Below are positions 2,089 through 45,077 of a DNA stretch of 64,000 bases, one piece after another. Both the position numbers and the translations under genes were made by a program. The stretch spans positions 1 to 64,000 of the forward strand of contig CAJXYS010000001.1 in the NCBI GenBank assembly GCA_913063035.1. Reading direction: 5' to 3'. The notes below the pieces were generated by a model. It worked only from the letters and a program-made list of their open reading frames with translations. It had not been told where the DNA came from and did not search any database. The stretch is from an uncultured Maritimibacter sp. GTDB taxonomy: Bacteria; Pseudomonadota; Alphaproteobacteria; Rhodobacterales; Rhodobacteraceae. Position 1 is the stretch's first letter, and every line of letters begins with the position of its first letter.

Positions 2089-3744
2089 TCACTCCGCCGG
2101 GGTTTGGCTGACGCGGTCCTCGCCGCCGCAGGCACGGGCGCCGGCCTGGATCTCGGCCAGGCGGGCCTTCTCGGCCTTGATCTGGTCGCGCACCGCGGCC
2201 TTGCGCTCTGCCGCCTTGCGCTTGCGATCGGCGGTGGCTTCCCAGTCGGCCATCTGCGCCTCGGCGATCTGGCGGCTGTCGTCGAAATGGAAGTCCACCT
2301 TCTCCTTCGACTGCGGCCCCCAGTAACCGACCTTGCCGAGGTCGTAGAACGTCCGGGCGAAGCCCGCCTTGGCGAAGGCCTTCAGGCAGCCCAGCAGGTA
2401 TTTCCTGCGGAAACCCGTGCCGCGCCAGGGGTAATGGAACAGCGCCTTGTTCATGTAGAAGCGCCGGTAGTTGTGCATCACCCGGTCGAGCAGCGTCGCC
2501 CGGTCCATCGCATCGGGCTTCATGATCGGGGTGACGAAGTTGTATTTCTCGAAGTCGAACACCTCGACCTTGTCGCCCAGCTCCTGGAAGAGCGGCGTGA
2601 AGGGCCAGGGCGTGTACATCGTCCAATTGGCGAGATCCGGGTTCCAGTCGCGCGCGAAACGGTAGGTCTCTTCGAGGGTTTCCTCGGTCTCGTTGTCGAG
2701 CCCGACGATGAACTGCGCCTCGGTGAAGATGTCGGCCTCGCGCAGCAGGCGGATGGCTTCCTTGTTCTGCTCGACGCGGGTCTCCTTGTTGAAGAGATCG
2801 AGCTTCATCTGCGCCGCCGCCTCCGTGCCAAGGCTGACATGGACGAGGCCCGCGCGCCGCCAGAGCGGCAGCATCTCCTTGTCGCGCTGGATGTCGGTGA
2901 CACGGGTGTTGATGCCCCATTTGACCCGTTCGGGCAGCCCCCGCGCGATCAGTTCTTCGCAGAAGGCGGTGAATTTCCGCTTGTTGATGGTGGGTTCCTC
3001 GTCGGCGAGGATGAAGAAGCCGACGCCGTGGTTTTCCACGAGATCCTCGATCTCGTCCACGACGGCCTTGGGGTCGCGGACCCGGTAGTCGCGCCAGAAT
3101 TTCCACTGCGAGCAGAACGAGCAGGTAAACGGGCAGCCCCGGGCCATGCTCGGGATCGCGAGCCGCGTGTTGAGCGGGATGTAGACGTAGTTCTCCCATT
3201 CGAGGATCGACCAGTCCGGCGTCAGGCCCTCGAGGTTCTTGACCGTGGGCGCCGCGGCGGTGGCCACGATCTCGCCGTCGGCGCTGTAGGCGATGCCCTT
3301 GATGCGCTTGGGCTCCGCCGGCCAGCGGCCATCCTCGACGGCACGGACGAAATCGAGAAACACCTCCTCGCCCTCGCCGCGGACGATCACGTCGACCTGC
3401 GGGGCTTCCGAGAGAACCTGCTTGAACATGAAGGTGGCATGCACCCCGCCCAGCACCGTGACGGCGTCGGGGGCGGCCTCCTTGGCGATCTCCAGCGCGC
3501 GCTCGGCCTTGTAGATCGAGGGCGTGATCGCGGTGCAGCCGACGATATCCGGGGCAAGCGCCGCGATCCGCGCGCGCAGGTCGTCCTCGCCGATGTGGTG
3601 GGTCATCGCATCGATGAAGGTGATATCGGTATAGCCGGCCTCCTTCAGCGGACCGGCCAGATAGGCCACCCAGGCGGGCGGCCAGTTCCCGGCGATCTCC
3701 GCGCCACCGGAATGGTAGTTGGGATGGATCAGGACGATTTTCAT
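2089..3744 (-). CDS. bchE: Anaerobic Mg-protoporphyrin IX monomethyl ester oxidative cyclase BchE
   Basis: The 551-residue radical-SAM enzyme forms the isocyclic E ring of bacteriochlorophyll without oxygen (oxygen atom from water). The N-terminal half looks like a cobalamin-binding (B12) domain ([16 protein letters not shown] start). The radical-SAM 4Fe-4S motif CPFTCSFC has cysteines at residues 204, 208 and 211. The start at 3744 follows a strong GGGGGAG ribosome site; an upstream in-frame start at 3780 lies in the promoter. The upstream region carries overlapping PpsR and FNR-type sites. The cluster also encodes AcsF, the oxygen-dependent alternative enzyme. Confidence 0.95.
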
Positions 3745-3781
3745 AACGGCTCCCCCTTTGCCCCAAGGGTGGCACGTCATC

Positions 3782-3799
3782 TGTCAACATTAATTGACA
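3782..3799. promoter_or_regulatory. PpsR/CrtJ operator upstream of bchE
   Basis: TGTCAACATTAATTGACA is an exact TGT-N12-ACA palindrome with TGTCAA/TTGACA arms, 37 bp before the bchE ATG. It is the consensus site for the PpsR repressor encoded at 7797-9227. Confidence 0.88.
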
Positions 3800-3807
3800 C
3801 AGATCAA
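3794..3807. promoter_or_regulatory. FNR/FnrL-type site upstream of bchE
   Basis: TTGACACAGATCAA fits TTGAY-N4-RTCAA and overlaps the last six bases of the PpsR box. FnrL control of bchE is known in Rhodobacter; here the operator overlap is read directly from the sequence and its use is inference. Confidence 0.65.
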
Positions 3808-3835
3808 TGCGTCGGAAATTTACAGGGTCTTGCCG

Positions 3836-4351
3836 TCACGCGAAAATCTGCGCGGCGTGCTCCTCGAGGTAAATCCGAAGCCAGGGCGTGTAGCGCGACG
3901 GGTCGCGCCGCGTCCGCGCGCACAACTCGGCCATCCCGACCCAGGCGGTGTCCATCACCTCGTCGGGGTTGGGGCTGACGCGGATGCGCCGCGCCACCCG
4001 CGCGAGGAAAATATCCACGACCTCGTGCTCGATCAGGCCGCCGCCCACATCGGCGCGGTATTCCACCTGTTCGCGCGGCGACAGAGCCAGTCCGGTGATC
4101 CCGAGTTCTTCTCGCAGCCTGCGTTCGGCGCAGGCCGCCGGTGCCTCGTCCATTCGGGGATGGGTGCAGCAGGTGTTGGCCCAAAGCCCCGGCGTGTGAT
4201 ACTTGCCGCGCGCGCGGCGCTGGATCAGCACCGCGTCGCCGCACATCACGAAGACGGACACCGCCTTGTGCCGCAGGCCGCGGCGATGCGCCTCCAGCTT
4301 TTCGACCGGCTGCAGCCGGCCCTCGACCCAGGCGGGAATGAGATCGGTCAT
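3836..4351 (-). CDS. idi: Isopentenyl-diphosphate delta-isomerase, type I
   Basis: The 171-residue Nudix-fold enzyme interconverts IPP and DMAPP, supplying prenyl units for carotenoids and the bacteriochlorophyll tail. Visible marks are the WANTCCTHP active-site segment (catalytic Cys region) and the Nudix-box helix AERRLREELGI. Its start overlaps the bchP stop (ATGA, 4 bp), so it is the last gene of the bchG-bch2-bchP-idi unit. Together with dxs at 26.4 kb it gives the cluster its own isoprenoid supply. Confidence 0.93.
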   Translation of the reverse strand: MTDLIPAWVEGRLQPVEKLEAHRRGLRHKAVSVFVMCGDAVLIQRRARGKYHTPGLWANTCCTHPRMDEAPAACAERRLREELGITGLALSPREQVEYRADVGGGLIEHEVVDIFLARVARRIRVSPNPDEVMDTAWVGMAELCARTRRDPSRYTPWLRIYLEEHAAQIFA

Positions 4352-6819: not shown

Positions 6820-7727
6820 CAGCCCGCCCCCATCGCCCGCAAGGCGGTCGCCGAGATCATCATTCCCGTCACGTAGAAGGTCACGCCGGTGGCATTATAC
6901 CAGGGCGCCCGGCCCTTCGGGTCCGACAGGAGAACCCGCATCGCCCAGAGCTGCGCCAGCAACAGCGCGGCCACGGCGGCGGCGTGCCAAGGCCTGTCCC
7001 AACCCAGCAGAAGGGCCACGACCGCGACCTGTGGCAGCGCCATGACCCAGCAGGCGACCCGCGCGGCGCGCGCCGGGCCAAGCGTCACGGGCAGCGAGTT
7101 CACGCCGGTCTGGCGATCACCCTCCAGCGCCTTGAAATCATTGAGCGTCATGATGCCGTGCGCACCCAGCGCATAGAGCGCGGCAAGCGTGACCACCGGC
7201 CAGGAGGGCGCCCCGGCCGAAAGTACGGCCGCGCCGGTAAACCAGGGCAGCCCTTCGTAGCAGAGCCCGACCAGTCCCGGCCCCCAGATCCCCGAACGCT
7301 TGAGCCGGACCGGCTCGGCCGAATAGGCCCAGGCCGCCAGCACGCCCACGACGGTGGCGCCGAACCCCCACGGCCCCAGCAACGCCCCGAGACCGAGCGC
7401 AAGCCCGCTCATCGCCAGCGCGATCCAGAGCCCCCAGCGCCCGGGCACGGCGCCCGACGGGATCGGGCGGTCGGGCTCGTTGATCGCGTCCACATGGCGA
7501 TCGCACCAGTCATTGGCGGCCTGGCTCATCCCGCAGACGACGGGACCGGCCAGCACGACACCGACCAGGACGAGGAACGGCGCCGACGAGACCGGCGCCC
7601 CCGAGGCGACGACGCCGCAGAGATAGGCCCAGATCGGCGGGAACCAGGTAATCGGCTTCAACAGCCGCAGCACGGCGCGCGGCGCGGGGTAGCGGAGATC
7701 GGTTTGTAAGGTTTCGCTGACACTCAT
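6819..7727 (-). CDS. bchG: Bacteriochlorophyll a synthase (geranylgeranyl transferase) BchG
   Basis: The 302-residue UbiA-family integral membrane prenyltransferase esterifies bacteriochlorophyllide a with geranylgeranyl diphosphate. The first Asp-rich motif (NDWCDRHVDAINEPDRP) and the N-terminal LLKPITWFPPIWAYLCG are typical of ChlG/BchG. I prefer the ATG at 7727 (MSVSETLQ) because family members begin this way; a TTG at 7748 is possible. The start codon lies only two bases from the PpsR box, leaving no room for a ribosome site and implying a very short leader. Confidence 0.93.
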   Translation of the reverse strand: MSVSETLQTDLRYPAPRAVLRLLKPITWFPPIWAYLCGVVASGAPVSSAPFLVLVGVVLAGPVVCGMSQAANDWCDRHVDAINEPDRPIPSGAVPGRWGLWIALAMSGLALGLGALLGPWGFGATVVGVLAAWAYSAEPVRLKRSGIWGPGLVGLCYEGLPWFTGAAVLSAGAPSWPVVTLAALYALGAHGIMTLNDFKALEGDRQTGVNSLPVTLGPARAARVACWVMALPQVAVVALLLGWDRPWHAAAVAALLLAQLWAMRVLLSDPKGRAPWYNATGVTFYVTGMMISATALRAMGAG

Positions 7728-7729
7728 GG

Positions 7730-7747
7730 TGTCAATTAAACTATACA
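7730..7747. promoter_or_regulatory. PpsR/CrtJ operator abutting bchG
   Basis: TGTCAATTAAACTATACA is an exact TGT-N12-ACA match whose edge is two bases from the bchG ATG. On the minus strand it contains TATAGT (7745-7740), a plausible -10 element. Confidence 0.85.
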
Positions 7748-7796
7748 ATCCGATTCATTGGAAGGGTGTTTCCGACGCCCGGCGAGATGCGGGCCG

Positions 7797-9227
7797 TCAG
7801 TCGCCACCGCCCGAATGCAGCAGGCCGTGCTTGCGAAGCTTCACGTAGAGGCTCTGGCGCGACAGGCCGAGCATTTCGGCCGCGGCGACGCGGTTGTTCC
7901 CGGTCATCTGGATCGCCGTCTCGATGCACATCTTTTCGACCACGTCCGACGTCGCCGAGACCAGCTCCTTCAGCGAGGCGGTGCCGACCAGGTCCATCAC
8001 GTTCTTGACGGCATCCTGGCTGACCATCGAACCGGGCTCGGCGGCCGCCATGGTGTCCTCTTGGGACACGTCCCGGATAATCAGCCCGATCCCGAGATCC
8101 CCGCCCCTCTGGCGAAGATGTGCCGCGGAGATATCGACCGGCAGGCGGGTTCCGACGACACTCTTGATCTGGGCCATGTAGCTGCGAATGCGGCCGGTCT
8201 TGATCGCGTTCTCGAGGATCAGGGTCAGGTCGACGGTCCCACGCATCAGGAACTCGCCGAGGGACTGATCCTTGACGTCGCGCAGCTGCGCGGCGTCGGT
8301 CATCACGAGGAAGGCCTCGTTGGCTTCGCGGATCACGCCCTTGGCGTCCGTCAGCACGATCGCGTCGGTCGTCGAGGCGAAGAGCGATGCAAGCGACTGC
8401 GTGAATTCCGGCCCGCGCACATCCTGGTCGTCGATGGCGGTCACGCGGCACAGCAGCACAAGATCGCCCGCAGCCCGGAAGAACTCGGGCAGGAGGGTGA
8501 CCACGCGCCCGTTGCGCCGCGCCACCGCCTCTATCCCCTTGAGCTCGCTCGTCGAGGCCGCGCCCTTGAGCGCCTCGAGGAACTCGGTGCGCCGTCGCCC
8601 CTCGAAGGCCTGCGCGATCCCGCTGTCGGACAATCCGTCCACGGTGCTGCCCAGCAACTGGGCCGCCGCCGTGTTCAGGTCGCGGATCTTTCCACCCTCG
8701 GGATCGACCAGCACCAGCGGCGTCTCCGAGGCCTCCAGCACCACGCGGAAATAGGTCTCGATCCCGCGCATGCGCTGCTGTTCGCGCTCGCGCGCCATCT
8801 GCTCGCGCACGAGTCGCTGCTGCACCTCGGCGAAGGGCTGCAGATCCCGCCCGAGCAACAGCACCGTTTCCCCGCCACGGATCCGGTGCATCGTGTAGCG
8901 GATCGGAAACTCCCACTTCGCATTGTCGATGTGGTTGAGCTCGATCGGACGCACCTGCGCATCCGGGCTCTCGCGCAGCGCGCGCGCCCGGGTTTCGAAC
9001 TTGTCGACACATTCGTCGGTCAGGAAATCGGCGAAGGGCCGCCCCACCCAGTGGTCGAGGCACCCAAGCGTCGGGCATTCTGTATTGACGGAAATTCCGC
9101 TGACGACACCGGCTTCGTCCACTACGACGGCAATATCTGAAGACCGTTCGATCGCCTGATCGATATCGGTAGCTTCTGGCAGGACACCAGCGCGGAACCG
9201 TTCCGATGTCCTCAGTTGCCGTATCAC
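7797..9227 (-). CDS. ppsR: Photosynthesis repressor PpsR (CrtJ)
   Basis: The 476-residue redox-responsive regulator represses bch, crt and puc genes. Order of parts: an N-terminal region and PAS domains (about residues 20-130, 160-265 and 280-390), a linker coiled coil (QQRLVREQMAREREQQRMR), and a C-terminal Fis-type helix-turn-helix (NNRVAAAEMLGLSRQSLYVKLRKHG). Cys260 and Cys434 lie close to the positions of the redox cysteines 251 and 424 of Rhodobacter sphaeroides PpsR. It starts at GTG with an upstream GAGGTGAAGG. Its recognition sequence occurs eight times in the window. It is followed by bchG and preceded by ppaA, the usual order. Confidence 0.95.
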   Translation of the reverse strand: MIRQLRTSERFRAGVLPEATDIDQAIERSSDIAVVVDEAGVVSGISVNTECPTLGCLDHWVGRPFADFLTDECVDKFETRARALRESPDAQVRPIELNHIDNAKWEFPIRYTMHRIRGGETVLLLGRDLQPFAEVQQRLVREQMAREREQQRMRGIETYFRVVLEASETPLVLVDPEGGKIRDLNTAAAQLLGSTVDGLSDSGIAQAFEGRRRTEFLEALKGAASTSELKGIEAVARRNGRVVTLLPEFFRAAGDLVLLCRVTAIDDQDVRGPEFTQSLASLFASTTDAIVLTDAKGVIREANEAFLVMTDAAQLRDVKDQSLGEFLMRGTVDLTLILENAIKTGRIRSYMAQIKSVVGTRLPVDISAAHLRQRGGDLGIGLIIRDVSQEDTMAAAEPGSMVSQDAVKNVMDLVGTASLKELVSATSDVVEKMCIETAIQMTGNNRVAAAEMLGLSRQSLYVKLRKHGLLHSGGGD

Positions 9228-9262: not shown

Positions 9263-10066
9263 TCAAAGCGACGCGCCAACAGACAATGTTTCGGCGACAG
9301 ACGCAAGCCCGCACCGCTCGACAGCCTCGCGGACGCTTTTGACGGCGTGATCGACGCCGGTTTTGTCTTCTATGTCGTCCGCGATCTCGACCGCTTTGCC
9401 CCCGACGACGATCGGCGGGCACTCGGCCACTTTCGCGCGCAGATCTTTCACCATGTCCGCAAGCGGTTCAATGGATTTCCGCACGGCGAGCGTGACCCCG
9501 ACCATCGCGAACCTGCCTTCGCGCACGACTTCCGCAATCTCTTCGGCGGTCATGCCGATCGCCATGTTCACCCAGATGCCATGTCGGCGGAACTGGTCCG
9601 CGGCCACGAAGGCCCCCAGCGAATGCTCCTCGAAATCGGGCACGGCCATCAGGATCGACTGCCCGAGCGGGATGCTGCGATCCATCCACTTGCCGCAGCC
9701 CTCGTCGCCGCTGTGGCGGAACAGCTTTTGCAGCCGCGCCGCGCCGACGGTCACGTCGACGAAGCTTGCCTCGTCCTTCAGCCACATCTGGCCGAGCTGG
9801 CGCGCGGCCTCGGGGACGTAGGCCTGGTAGATCTCCTGCGAACTCACCCCCTTGGCGACAAGCTCGGTGATCACGGCGTGGTGGCTGGTCTCGGACTGCG
9901 ACATCAGCGCCTCGCAGAAACGCTCCACCCATTCGGCCCGTGTCTCGGGGTGGGCGGGGCTGTGCGACGACGCGATGCTGCGCAGCGCCGATTCTGCGAG
10001 ATACCGTATCCCCCTGCCCTGCTGGTGCGAGAAACCGGCCCGCTCTTTACGAAAATCATTTGGCAT
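9263..10066 (-). CDS. ppaA: PpaA/AerR-type cobalamin-binding antirepressor
   Basis: The 267-residue protein belongs to the PpaA/AerR family that binds a corrinoid through a SCHIC-type fold and relieves PpsR repression. His148 in the segment VPDFEEHSLGAF is the likely cobalamin axial ligand, by analogy with the AerR histidine. The N-terminal part is helical (QSETSHHAVITELVAKGVSSQEIYQAYV) and the C-terminal half is Rossmann-like (FAMVGVTLA, PPIVVGGKA). It starts at ATG 10066 with GGGGGGTG just upstream. It lies 35 bp before ppsR and shares a regulatory region with the divergent bchF. Confidence 0.9.
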   Translation of the reverse strand: MPNDFRKERAGFSHQQGRGIRYLAESALRSIASSHSPAHPETRAEWVERFCEALMSQSETSHHAVITELVAKGVSSQEIYQAYVPEAARQLGQMWLKDEASFVDVTVGAARLQKLFRHSGDEGCGKWMDRSIPLGQSILMAVPDFEEHSLGAFVAADQFRRHGIWVNMAIGMTAEEIAEVVREGRFAMVGVTLAVRKSIEPLADMVKDLRAKVAECPPIVVGGKAVEIADDIEDKTGVDHAVKSVREAVERCGLASVAETLSVGASL

Positions 10067-22652: not shown

Positions 22653-23773
22653 ACATGCAAAGCAAGCATACCGCCGACGCGACGACCGTCGAAGAGGGAC
22701 TCGCGATCCAGGAAGAGCAGGCCAAGCTCGACAGCAAGTTCGCCACCGACGTGGCGATGCAGAACACGCTGCTCACCCCGCGCTTTTACACCACCGATTT
22801 CGACGAGCTCGACGGGATCGACGTCTCTTCCGTCCGCAAGGACTGGGATGCGCTGATCGACGAGATGGAGGCGGACCCGAACAAGGGCCACTTCAAGAAG
22901 AACGAGGACTGGGATCACGTCGACTGGGACGGCATGGACCCCGACCTGAAGAAAGAGTTCATCGACTTCCTGATCTCGTCCTGCACCGCGGAGTTCTCGG
23001 GCTGCGTTCTCTACAAGGAGATGAAACGCCGCGGGAAGAATTCCGACATCGTGCAGCTCTTCCAGCTCATGGCCCGCGACGAGGCCCGGCATGCGGGTTT
23101 CATCAACGACGCCCTGCGCGAGGCGGGCGTGGCGGTGAATCTCGGCTTCCTGACGCAGAAGAAGAAATACACCTACTTCCGTCCGAAATTCATCTACTAC
23201 GCCACCTATCTCAGCGAGAAGATCGGCTATGCCCGCTATATCACGATCTTCCGGCACCTCGAGAAGCACCCCGAGCACCGCTTCCACCCGATCTTCAAGT
23301 GGTTCGAGGAATGGTGCAACGACGAGTTCCGTCACGGCGAGGCGTTCGCCCTCCTGATGAAGACCGACCCGAAACTGACCGCGGGGCGCAACGTCCTGTG
23401 GATCAAGTTCTTCCTGACGGCCGTCTTCGCCACGATGTATGTGCGCGACCACCAGCGCCCGGCCTTCCACGAGGCGCTCGGCGTCGATACGGACTGGTAC
23501 GGCGAGGAGGTCTTCCGCAAGACCTCTGAACTCTCCAAGCAGATCTTCCCGATCACGCTGGATATCGACAATCCGCGCTGGGCCGCGGGGCTGAAGAAGC
23601 TCCAGAAGGCCAACGCCGACCTGGCCCGCGCCAAGGCCGGGTCCGGTCTCGGGGCCATGCTGCGCCGGATGTCGGCACAGGCACGCGCGGCGGCGGCCTT
23701 CGCCGGGCTCTACATGATCCCGGCGAAAAAGCACGCCGTCCCGGCCACCACTCGGCTCGAGCCCGCCTACTGA
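22649..23773 (+). CDS. acsF: Aerobic Mg-protoporphyrin IX monomethyl ester cyclase AcsF
   Basis: The 374-residue di-iron enzyme forms the E ring using O2. Di-iron ligand motifs DEARHAGF and NDEFRHGEAF are present, as is the N-terminal TLLTPRFYTTDFDE. The ATG at 22649 overlaps the preceding gene by 4 bp and follows GAGGAG; a start at 22616 lies upstream in the other gene and is less likely. With bchE also present, ring closure is encoded for both oxic and anoxic conditions. Confidence 0.95.
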   Translation: MNMQSKHTADATTVEEGLAIQEEQAKLDSKFATDVAMQNTLLTPRFYTTDFDELDGIDVSSVRKDWDALIDEMEADPNKGHFKKNEDWDHVDWDGMDPDLKKEFIDFLISSCTAEFSGCVLYKEMKRRGKNSDIVQLFQLMARDEARHAGFINDALREAGVAVNLGFLTQKKKYTYFRPKFIYYATYLSEKIGYARYITIFRHLEKHPEHRFHPIFKWFEEWCNDEFRHGEAFALLMKTDPKLTAGRNVLWIKFFLTAVFATMYVRDHQRPAFHEALGVDTDWYGEEVFRKTSELSKQIFPITLDIDNPRWAAGLKKLQKANADLARAKAGSGLGAMLRRMSAQARAAAAFAGLYMIPAKKHAVPATTRLEPAY

Positions 23774-42447: not shown

Positions 42448-43493
42448 GCGGTTTCCCTAACCCGGCCCACCGATTGCATCAATGCCGTTCGTTTCTCGGT
42501 ATCGCGGGCCTTCAGCCGGGCCATGGTCGCGCAGAGCGTGTCGCTCCAGCCGGTATCCTCGGCCGGCGCGGCGGCGGCCGCATCGACGAGAAACGCGGTC
42601 TCGGGCAGCGGCCGGGCATAGATCAGCGGCGATCGCGGCATCACCAGCGTCCCGCCGGTGCGCAGCACCGACAGCATCAGCCAGCCGAGTTTCTGCCCGC
42701 CGGAGGTGTGAGCACGGTCCGTCAGCGCGGCGGCGCCCTTGGCGCGCACGCGGCCGCCGATCCCGGCATAGATGTAGCGCGCCGCGAATATCCCCGGGCG
42801 GCACGACAGCGGCAGGGCCGCGATCCCGGCCTCGGAGCGGGCGTAAAGCCCCTCGGCCTCGGCCAGCAGGCGCAGCAGCAGGCGGGGCGTCTCGGGGCTG
42901 GCCGCCGGGTTGCGCAGGAAAGCCGGGGAAGAAAGGCCCGCCTCCTCCAGCCACTCGGTCGGCAGGTAGAGCCGCCCCTCGGCCGCGTCCTCGCCCACGT
43001 CGCGGGCGATATTCGTCAATTGCATCGCCACGCCGAGATCGCAGGCGCGGGCCAGCGTGTCCCGCGACCGTGTCCGCATCAGGACGCACATCATCGCCCC
43101 GACCGCCGAGGCCACCCGCGCCGAATAGGAACGCAGGTCGGACAGGCTGGCATAGCGCCGCCCCTCGGCATCCCAGGCGAGGCCCTCGAGCAGGGCCTCG
43201 GGCAGCGCGCGGGGCATGTCGAAATCCTCGATCAGCGCGGCGAAGGCCCGGTCCGGCGCATCGTCCCGCGGCCGGCCGGCATAGGCCAGGTCCAGCCGGT
43301 CCTGCAGGCGCAGCACGGCGTCGATCTTCGCGCCGTGCAGGTCCACGGCATCATCGGCCAGCCGGCAGAAGGCATAGAGCGCCAGCGCCGGGTCGCGCAG
43401 CCGCGCCGGCAACAGCCGGGAGGCCGCGTGGAAAGAGCGGGATCCGTGCCGGATCGCCGCCACGCAGTAGTCCATGTCCCGCGCCGCGATCAT
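42444..43493 (-). CDS. crtB: Phytoene synthase CrtB
   Basis: The 349-residue prenyl transferase condenses two GGPP to phytoene. The first Asp-rich motif is in LADDAVD (residues 46-51) and the second in DVGEDAAEGRLYLPTEWL. I take the ATG at 43493, which overlaps the crtI stop (ATGA); an internal ATG (MDYCVAAIRHGSRSFH) six codons in is also possible. Confidence 0.95.
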   Translation of the reverse strand: MIAARDMDYCVAAIRHGSRSFHAASRLLPARLRDPALALYAFCRLADDAVDLHGAKIDAVLRLQDRLDLAYAGRPRDDAPDRAFAALIEDFDMPRALPEALLEGLAWDAEGRRYASLSDLRSYSARVASAVGAMMCVLMRTRSRDTLARACDLGVAMQLTNIARDVGEDAAEGRLYLPTEWLEEAGLSSPAFLRNPAASPETPRLLLRLLAEAEGLYARSEAGIAALPLSCRPGIFAARYIYAGIGGRVRAKGAAALTDRAHTSGGQKLGWLMLSVLRTGGTLVMPRSPLIYARPLPETAFLVDAAAAAPAEDTGWSDTLCATMARLKARDTEKRTALMQSVGRVRETA

Positions 43494-45043
43494 GACCGGG
43501 GCACCTCTGCCGGATCGGGCACGATCTTGCCCAACACCTCGGCGCTGGAGATCACGCCGGGCAGCCCGGCGCCGGGATGGGTGCCGGCACCGACGAGGAA
43601 CAGCCCCTCGGCTTCCTCGCTGACATTGTGCGGGCGGAACCAGGCGCTTTGCAGGATGCGCGGCTCGATGGAGAACCCGGTGCCGTGCGGGCTGAGATAG
43701 CGGTCGCGGAACGTCTCGGGCGTGAAGACCTGCGAGGCCGAGAGGCGCGCGCCCAGGCCGGGCAGCAGCTGCTCCTCCAGCACCGCCTGCACCTTGGCGC
43801 GGTAGGGCTCGGCCATTGCCGCCCAGTCGACCGGGTCGCGATGGCCGAGATGCGGCACCGGGCTGAGCGCGTAGAAGGTATCGCCGCCCTCGGGCGCGAC
43901 CGAGGGATCGGTCACGCTTGGGCGGTGGACGTAGAGGCTCATGTCCTCGGCGAGCCGGCCCTTGAGGAAAATGTCCCGCACCAGTCCGCGATAGCGCGGC
44001 CCGTTGAGAATCGTGTGATGCCCGACATCCGGCCACAGGTCGCGCGTGCCCTCGGTGCCGAAATACCAGACGAAGAGCCCCATGGACCAGCGCATCCGGT
44101 CAAGCCGGCGCCGGGTCCAGCGCCTGCGGCCGCGATTGCGCAGGAGATGGCTATAGGTGTGCCCCGCATCGGCATTGGACACCACGATATCGGCGGTGAC
44201 GATCTCGCCCGAACTGAGCCGCACGCCGCGGGCGCGATTGTCCTTCAGAAGGATCTCGTCGACCTCGGCCCCCTGTCGCACGAGACCGCCCTGGTCCTCG
44301 ACCACCCGCACCATCGCCCGCGCGATCGCGTCGACCCCGCCCATCGCGTAGTGCACACCGAAGGCCTTTTCGAGATGGCTGACGAGCGTGTACATCGACG
44401 TCACGTTGAACGGGTCGCCTCCGATGAAGAGCGGATGGAACGACAGCGCCATGCGGAGGCGTTCGTCCTTCACGCGCCGGGCGGCATGGGCATAGACCGA
44501 GCGATCCGCGCGCAGCCATGCGAAGGTGGGCAGCACCTTGATGAGATCGCCGAGCCTGTGCATCGACCGACGGCCCAGGTCCTCGAAACCGACCCAGTAG
44601 CGGCGCTCGCTGTCCTGCAGGAATTTCGTGTAACCGGCCAGGTCGCCCGGCGAGAGCCGCGCGACCTCGGCCTTCATGGCCGCCTCGTCCTGCCGGGCGG
44701 TGAAGCGGCTGCCGTCCGGCCAGCGGATCTCGTAGAACGGGTCCAGCGCGCGAAGGTCCACATCCGCATCGAAATCGCGGCCGCAGGCCTGCCAGAGTTC
44801 GCGGAACACCTGCGGCACGGTGACGATGGTGGGGCCGAGATCGAAACGATGGCCGTTTTCCCGGATGCTCGAGCCGCGCCCCCCGGGATCCTCGAGCCGG
44901 TCGAGCACCGTCACCCGGTAGCCCCGCGCGCCGAGACGCATGGCCGATGCCAGCCCGCCGAGACCCGCGCCGATCACCACGGCATGGGGGGCAAGCCCCG
45001 TCTTGGCCTCGGCTCCGAGACCGGGATCGACACGCGTCAACAT
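43490..45043 (-). CDS. crtI: Phytoene desaturase CrtI
   Basis: The 517-residue FAD-dependent desaturase converts phytoene to neurosporene. The N-terminal dinucleotide motif is AVVIGAGLGGLASAMRLGARGYRVTVLD; the C-terminal family signature is LFLVGAGTHPGAGLPGVISSAE. It shares a 70 bp divergent control region with crtA containing one PpsR box. Confidence 0.95.
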   Translation of the reverse strand: MLTRVDPGLGAEAKTGLAPHAVVIGAGLGGLASAMRLGARGYRVTVLDRLEDPGGRGSSIRENGHRFDLGPTIVTVPQVFRELWQACGRDFDADVDLRALDPFYEIRWPDGSRFTARQDEAAMKAEVARLSPGDLAGYTKFLQDSERRYWVGFEDLGRRSMHRLGDLIKVLPTFAWLRADRSVYAHAARRVKDERLRMALSFHPLFIGGDPFNVTSMYTLVSHLEKAFGVHYAMGGVDAIARAMVRVVEDQGGLVRQGAEVDEILLKDNRARGVRLSSGEIVTADIVVSNADAGHTYSHLLRNRGRRRWTRRRLDRMRWSMGLFVWYFGTEGTRDLWPDVGHHTILNGPRYRGLVRDIFLKGRLAEDMSLYVHRPSVTDPSVAPEGGDTFYALSPVPHLGHRDPVDWAAMAEPYRAKVQAVLEEQLLPGLGARLSASQVFTPETFRDRYLSPHGTGFSIEPRILQSAWFRPHNVSEEAEGLFLVGAGTHPGAGLPGVISSAEVLGKIVPDPAEVPRS

Positions 45044-45059
45044 GGGACCACCCTACATG

Positions 45060-45077
45060 TGTCTACTTAAGTTGACA
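45060..45077. promoter_or_regulatory. PpsR/CrtJ operator between crtI and crtA
   Basis: TGTCTACTTAAGTTGACA matches TGT-N12-ACA and contains the -35 of the crtA promoter. Confidence 0.86.

Follow-up and report, generated by a model that had tools for sequence, protein, structure and literature searches.

BchE is an oxygen-sensitive cyclase, and the closest described system for control of its gene is that of R. sphaeroides. In this organism FnrL binds TTGACatgcATCAA upstream of bchEJGP (PMC2908626), and changing the T of TCAA at -57 in the box cuts FnrL-driven activity by approximately 90% (PMC4263372). The PpsR motif obtained by ChIP at bchEJ is TGTCAACTGAAATGGACACA (PMC4344238). In arrays of an fnrL deletion strain the change in bchE was not in the expected direction (PMC4263372), and bchE has been counted as FnrL-activated in R. 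capsulatus and as FnrL-repressed in R. sphaeroides (PMC4634722); the parts of that paper available to us give no direct FnrL site for R. capsulatus bchE. Presence or absence of oxygen made little difference to the occupancy of bchE by the R. capsulatus repressor CrtJ (PMC5362033), a result not expected from a simple exclusion switch. One paper on D. shibae states that the photosynthesis cluster showed no oxygen-dependent regulation and that PpsR reads light (PMC10890935), although a paper that it cites reports that several bch genes are activated anaerobically by FnrL (PMC5398030). According to a review, both cyclase systems of Rubrivivax are under oxygen-responsive control by FnrL (PMC4500134). 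The usual position of the box in FNR-activated promoters of E. coli is -41.5, or class II (PMC3688515). In the parts of the literature that were searched, we found no description of an overlap between FNR and PpsR sites at bchE, or of the two-slot pattern described below.

The window, a stretch of 64,000 nucleotides analysed here as a whole, encodes the 551-amino-acid anaerobic Mg-protoporphyrin monomethyl ester cyclase BchE on the minus strand (2089-3744), with its ATG at 3744. The identity of the gene, as named in the original prediction, was borne out by the TIGR02026 model (807 bits, cut-off 481). The genes bchG, bchP and idi form a run upstream of bchE in the same orientation, and idi (3836-4351, minus strand) is separated from bchE by an intergenic gap of 91 bp. 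The start of bchG has tandem PpsR motifs 7 bp apart (7705-7722 and 7730-7747); both would fall inside the longest bchG reading frame (TTG at 7748), which suggests that the true start is probably later. Read-through from this run, with its own tandem motifs at 7705-7747, could bypass the bchE promoter. The repressor gene ppsR (7797-9227, minus strand) encodes a protein with PAS and Fis-type helix-turn-helix domains (TIGR02040, 384 bits), and is near a gene for a B12-binding co-regulator (9263-10066, minus strand, PF02310) labeled as PpaA/AerR-type from its position and domain. The oxygen-dependent cyclase acting at the same step as BchE is encoded by acsF (22742-23734, plus strand; TIGR02029, 532 bits, cut-off 192.5). 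FnrL is encoded in the source genome as an Fnr-type helix-turn-helix protein (NF045989, 446 bits, cut-off 300), with a CSSC...CSRC arrangement close to the N terminus which we take to be the FnrL-type cysteine cluster.

The original prediction placed overlapping PpsR and FNR-type sites at 3782-3807, and both the coordinates and the six common bases were correct: on the forward strand TGTCAACATTAATTGACA occupies 3782-3799 and TTGACACAGATCAA occupies 3794-3807, with TTGACA (3794-3799) belonging to both. Read on the bchE strand, the predicted FNR/FnrL box TTGATCTGTGTCAA (3794-3807) is an exact match to TTGAY-N4-RTCAA and starts at -63 from the ATG, while the predicted PpsR operator TGTCAATTAATGTTGACA (3782-3799), here called P1, starts at -55 and shares TGTCAA with the box. 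The arms of P1 are perfectly palindromic as TGT-N12-ACA, in the best form TGTCAA...TTGACA, with 12/12 consensus arm bases. A possible tandem partner 7-8 bp away, TGCCACCCTTGGGGCAAA (3757-3774, minus strand), is degenerate, with 4/6 core bases, and falls in a register that we call P2. A purine-rich, Shine-Dalgarno-like AGGGGGAG is present at 3750-3757 on the same strand. A terminator-like match at 3813-3796 was dismissed, as a single match was found against a shuffled mean of 0.5.

The PpsR half-site TTGACA contains the FNR half-box TTGAC, so that independent evidence for FNR comes solely from the distal half, TTGAT. Since the half-sites are alike, our case was built on comparison across genomes and not on motif scores. 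Within the window TGT-N12-ACA was found 12 times against 3.0 expected, and the FNR box alone, at no more than one mismatch, twice against 1.8 expected, which is not unusual. The second of these FNR matches (45027-45040) lies inside the 5' coding end of a minus-strand reading frame (43490-45043) taken by inspection to be crtI. An apparent second FNR-PpsR pair there (45027-45077), also offset by +33, was rejected, as its FNR-like match has a mismatch and sits in a coding start. Across the source genome, exact TTGAYN4RTCAA occurs in 28 places and a reversed control pattern in one; the 14-base box of bchE, TTGATCTGTGTCAA, is present a second time at G000:C7:3039-3052 (L201). The composite TTGAYN3TGTCAAN6TTGACA, with up to three mismatches, matched four times in the window against 0.05 expected. 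These matches represent two loci, each with its mirror-image match, and only the bchE locus has zero mismatches. The exact composite occurs in one place in the 3.2-Mb source genome and the control in none.

We compared bchE promoters in two samples, which partly share species. Set A consisted of the best 80 of 576 confirmed bchE relatives from the genome_contigs database plus the window, and set B of one genome per genus of the family (394 genomes). A BchE-family match at E ≤ 1e-100 was present in 86 of the 394 genomes, which yielded 76 promoters of true BchE, the window included; two of the genes have in-frame stops. Eleven lower-scoring BchE-like family genes (L182-L192, with N termini such as MRITLLHPPHTAIGSR; the start of L189 is unsure) had neither an FNR nor a PpsR motif upstream and are probably not the cyclase. 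The R. capsulatus bchE promoter was not identified within either set. In set B an exact FNR box precedes bchE in 72 of 76 promoters, 65-71 bp before the start codon in 62 of the 72. With up to one mismatch allowed, a box was found upstream in 76 of the 81 members of set A (best 80 of 576 plus the window) and was absent upstream of L026, L036, L065, L069 and L080, which are two Woeseiaceae MAGs, two Novosphingobium and one Rhodospirillales MAG. One gammaproteobacterial MAG (L015, upstream of 3001) has a bchE 78% identical to that of the window, preceded by an FNR box, P1 and a P2-register motif spaced as in the window; this represents either transfer of the gene together with its promoter or misbinning.

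The strict composite was matched in 22 of the 394 family genomes, with no matches to the control. Seventeen of these lie at bchE (one clipped by a contig end) and one at a broken bchE; of the others, two are at bchC, one is at a gene for a prenyl diphosphate synthase that scores below the model cut-offs, and one is elsewhere. The broken gene (L094:1501-1650) retains the FNR/P1 composite ahead of an early stop, and its promoter seems to have outlived it. Upstream of bchC, the overlapping PpsR/FNR composite was seen in L086 and L089 (around 1501), the copy in L086 being mirror-oriented relative to bchE.

The PpsR motifs upstream of bchE fall in two fixed places. We collected TGTN12ACA within 300 bp upstream of the 72 boxed genes of set B and counted offsets from the start of the FNR box. 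Among the 88 motifs, 40 are at +8 (P1) and 40 at +33 (P2), together 80, with one at +32, one at +34 and six elsewhere. The P2 motif is separated from the FNR box by 19 bp (in two promoters by 18 and 20 bp) and lies 25 bp beyond P1, as expected for tandem PpsR sites with 7 bp between them. The offsets thus make the overlapping site the upstream member of a two-slot arrangement. An overlap peculiar to the source genome was rejected as an explanation, as P1 is present in 40 of 72 genus-level promoters. In set B both registers are filled in 14 promoters, P1 only in 26, P2 only in 28 and neither in 4 (Fisher p = 8.9e-6), and in three of the last four P1 is otherwise good but has its TGT replaced by CGT. 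The corresponding numbers in set A (best 80 of 576 plus the window) are 12, 20, 38 and 6 (p = 1.7e-5). In P1-only promoters, 19 of 26 keep at least 4/6 core bases in the P2 register; offset +6 also scores 19 of 26, which we read as an echo of the palindrome of P1 itself. A lost slot often persists in degenerate form.

A BchE tree of 156 rows, 147 of them with traits, was built from the combined sets as a quick gene tree with a midpoint root, and the sets share species. On this tree P1 changed 34 times and P2 29 times. Among 15 independent pairs differing in P1, P2 was opposite in 7.8 and the same in 0.3 on average, with a median p of 0.016 in each direction (0.002-0.29 in one and 0.004-0.51 in the other); in set A alone (best 80 of 576 plus the window) the independent-pairs test was not significant (median p 0.125). 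A model of correlated evolution on the combined tree gave a likelihood ratio of 30.0 (4 df, p = 4.9e-6). This suggests repeated movement of the repressor site between the overlapping place and another at a fixed distance of 25 bases further on.

The core promoter was predicted from alignment on the FNR box. In the 55 promoters without P2, an A at box position 37 and a T at position 41 occur together in 42, and the next best of 26 offsets reaches 14 of 55. Taking these bases as -11 and -7 of a -10 element centers the FNR box at -41.5. In the window the predicted -10 element is CACCCT (3766-3771, minus strand), which has the A at -11 and the T at -7 but is weak. A predicted transcription start at 3759 on the same strand, placed from the -10 and class II spacing, would leave a 15-nucleotide leader; the start base is an A in 63 of 72 promoters. 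A scan with the sigma-70 consensus gave no match on the bchE strand, its sole match being on the opposite strand (3819-3847). With this start, P1 would span -40 to -23 and P2 -15 to +3, and the bchE promoter is predicted to be of FnrL-activated class II type with two PpsR slots.

The best explanation, to which we assign a probability of roughly 0.72, is that PpsR covers a class II FnrL promoter at bchE and that competition between the two regulators belongs to one of two interchangeable placements. FnrL, active without oxygen, would bind the box at -41.5 and bring RNA polymerase to a -10 element lacking a good -35. The upstream half-site of P1 falls within the promoter-proximal FNR half-site, so PpsR bound at P1 should exclude FnrL and also cover the -35 and spacer region; the weak P2 may aid PpsR through tandem binding. 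We infer that bchE would be on only with active FnrL and with PpsR off. Both sites look selected and, as had been proposed, are of the right kinds for bchE; FnrL and PpsR are both encoded.

Both registers cover predicted core elements, so PpsR should be able to block polymerase with or without blocking FnrL. The overlap could be a by-product of occlusion, with PpsR at P1 or P2 simply barring polymerase, a reading that we hold at about even odds. The overlap may derive from a -41.5 site abutting an operator pair, given the TTGAC common to both half-sites, and the interchange of the registers fits this, as does the presence of PpsR sites over both -35 and -10 at bchF of D. shibae (PMC10890935). 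Even so, exclusion of FnrL would still occur at P1, and occlusion does not make the overlap harmless.

The original prediction went further and took the overlap as a direct switch. In its strong form, this reading makes competition of FnrL and PpsR for the common bases the principal mechanism and the overlap the very feature that selection maintains. As a general mechanism we consider this doubtful. The overlapping register is found in 40 of the 72 genus-level promoters, and in set B a TGT within the FNR box tends to be accompanied by a far-arm ACA (40/13/6/13, p = 0.0016; for tree-based pairs the median p is 0.06 in one direction and 0.03 in the other), but 28 of the 72 have only the non-overlapping register, clear of the box, and the registers interchange often. 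Elsewhere the non-overlapping register seems to serve the same purpose, and competition is thus not accepted as a conserved principle; the conserved theme appears to be PpsR covering an FnrL promoter. The proposal fares better at the window itself. Simultaneous binding of FnrL and PpsR is implausible given six common recognition bases, and a perfect P1 beside a degenerate P2 makes mutual exclusion likely here; direct competition is probably real at this bchE. It is a plausible property of the window and the other P1-only promoters, 26 of 72 in total.

It is also possible, though we would not favor it, that a different CRP/FNR protein (CrpK- or Dnr-like) serves as the activator, or that PpsR is mainly light-responsive, making the logic one of light plus anoxia. 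CrpK too binds and activates bchE in R. sphaeroides (PMC4263372), and the source genome has two further Crp-family matches, but it also encodes a clear FnrL. D. shibae PpsR reads light (PMC10890935). Whatever the activator, the repression in air that had been proposed is uncertain: the nearest rows to the window by BchE (among the best 80 of 576) include Roseovarius, and for the roseobacter D. shibae one paper denies any observed oxygen-dependent control of the cluster (PMC10890935), although the paper it cites reports anaerobic activation by FnrL (PMC5398030). It is very improbable that PpsR acts alone and that its half-site has been extended into an FNR box by chance: the half-site does contain an FNR half, and boxes with a single mismatch are no rarity in 64 kb, but the box is exact in 28 P2-only promoters without a complete P1-register motif, by which its origin as a by-product of the PpsR arm was rejected, and the box mutation in R. 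sphaeroides (PMC4263372) argues against it as well.

A more tentative idea, less likely than not, is that bchE promoters form a natural series: a single repressor would shift between two set positions, competing with the activator from P1 and blocking only polymerase from P2, selection would keep at least one slot, and the slot would set the logic. If true, enough active FnrL would displace PpsR in P1 genomes, with anoxia overriding light or redox repression, while in P2 genomes PpsR would win regardless of FnrL. The timing of bchE switch-on helps decide between use of BchE and AcsF, both of which the source genome carries, and the two-slot pattern offers matched natural promoters in which to test operator position against regulatory logic.

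Compared with known systems, the nearest counterpart is bchE of R. sphaeroides, the same gene with the same two regulators and a box at -67 rather than -63 from the start codon. One promoter in our samples (L107) is letter-identical to the published R. sphaeroides motifs, with sites at -67 and -34 and thus an offset of +33. Read from this sequence, the R. sphaeroides box ends in ...CATCAA, there is no P1, and the PpsR site at +33 is 19 bp clear of the box, whereas the window has an overlapping P1 and a degenerate P2. The R. sphaeroides promoter that has been studied is thus without the overlap, and the behavior of overlap promoters cannot be read from its data. In R. capsulatus, bchEJGP is among the promoters with CrtJ motifs 45-500 bp apart (PMC6199135), as against the 25-bp pair at bchE here. 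The bchC promoter of R. capsulatus has two TGTN12ACA palindromes across the core promoter, at -47 to -30 and -21 to -4, 26 bp apart and the lower one over the -10 (PMC5362033). Unlike those of bchC, the bchE slots are 25 bp apart and phased to an FNR box, and a single full-core member is present in 54 of 72 promoters. The class II FNR promoters of E. coli have the box near -41.5 (PMC3688515), the position predicted for bchE, but at bchE the operator of a photosynthesis repressor is built into the FNR box.
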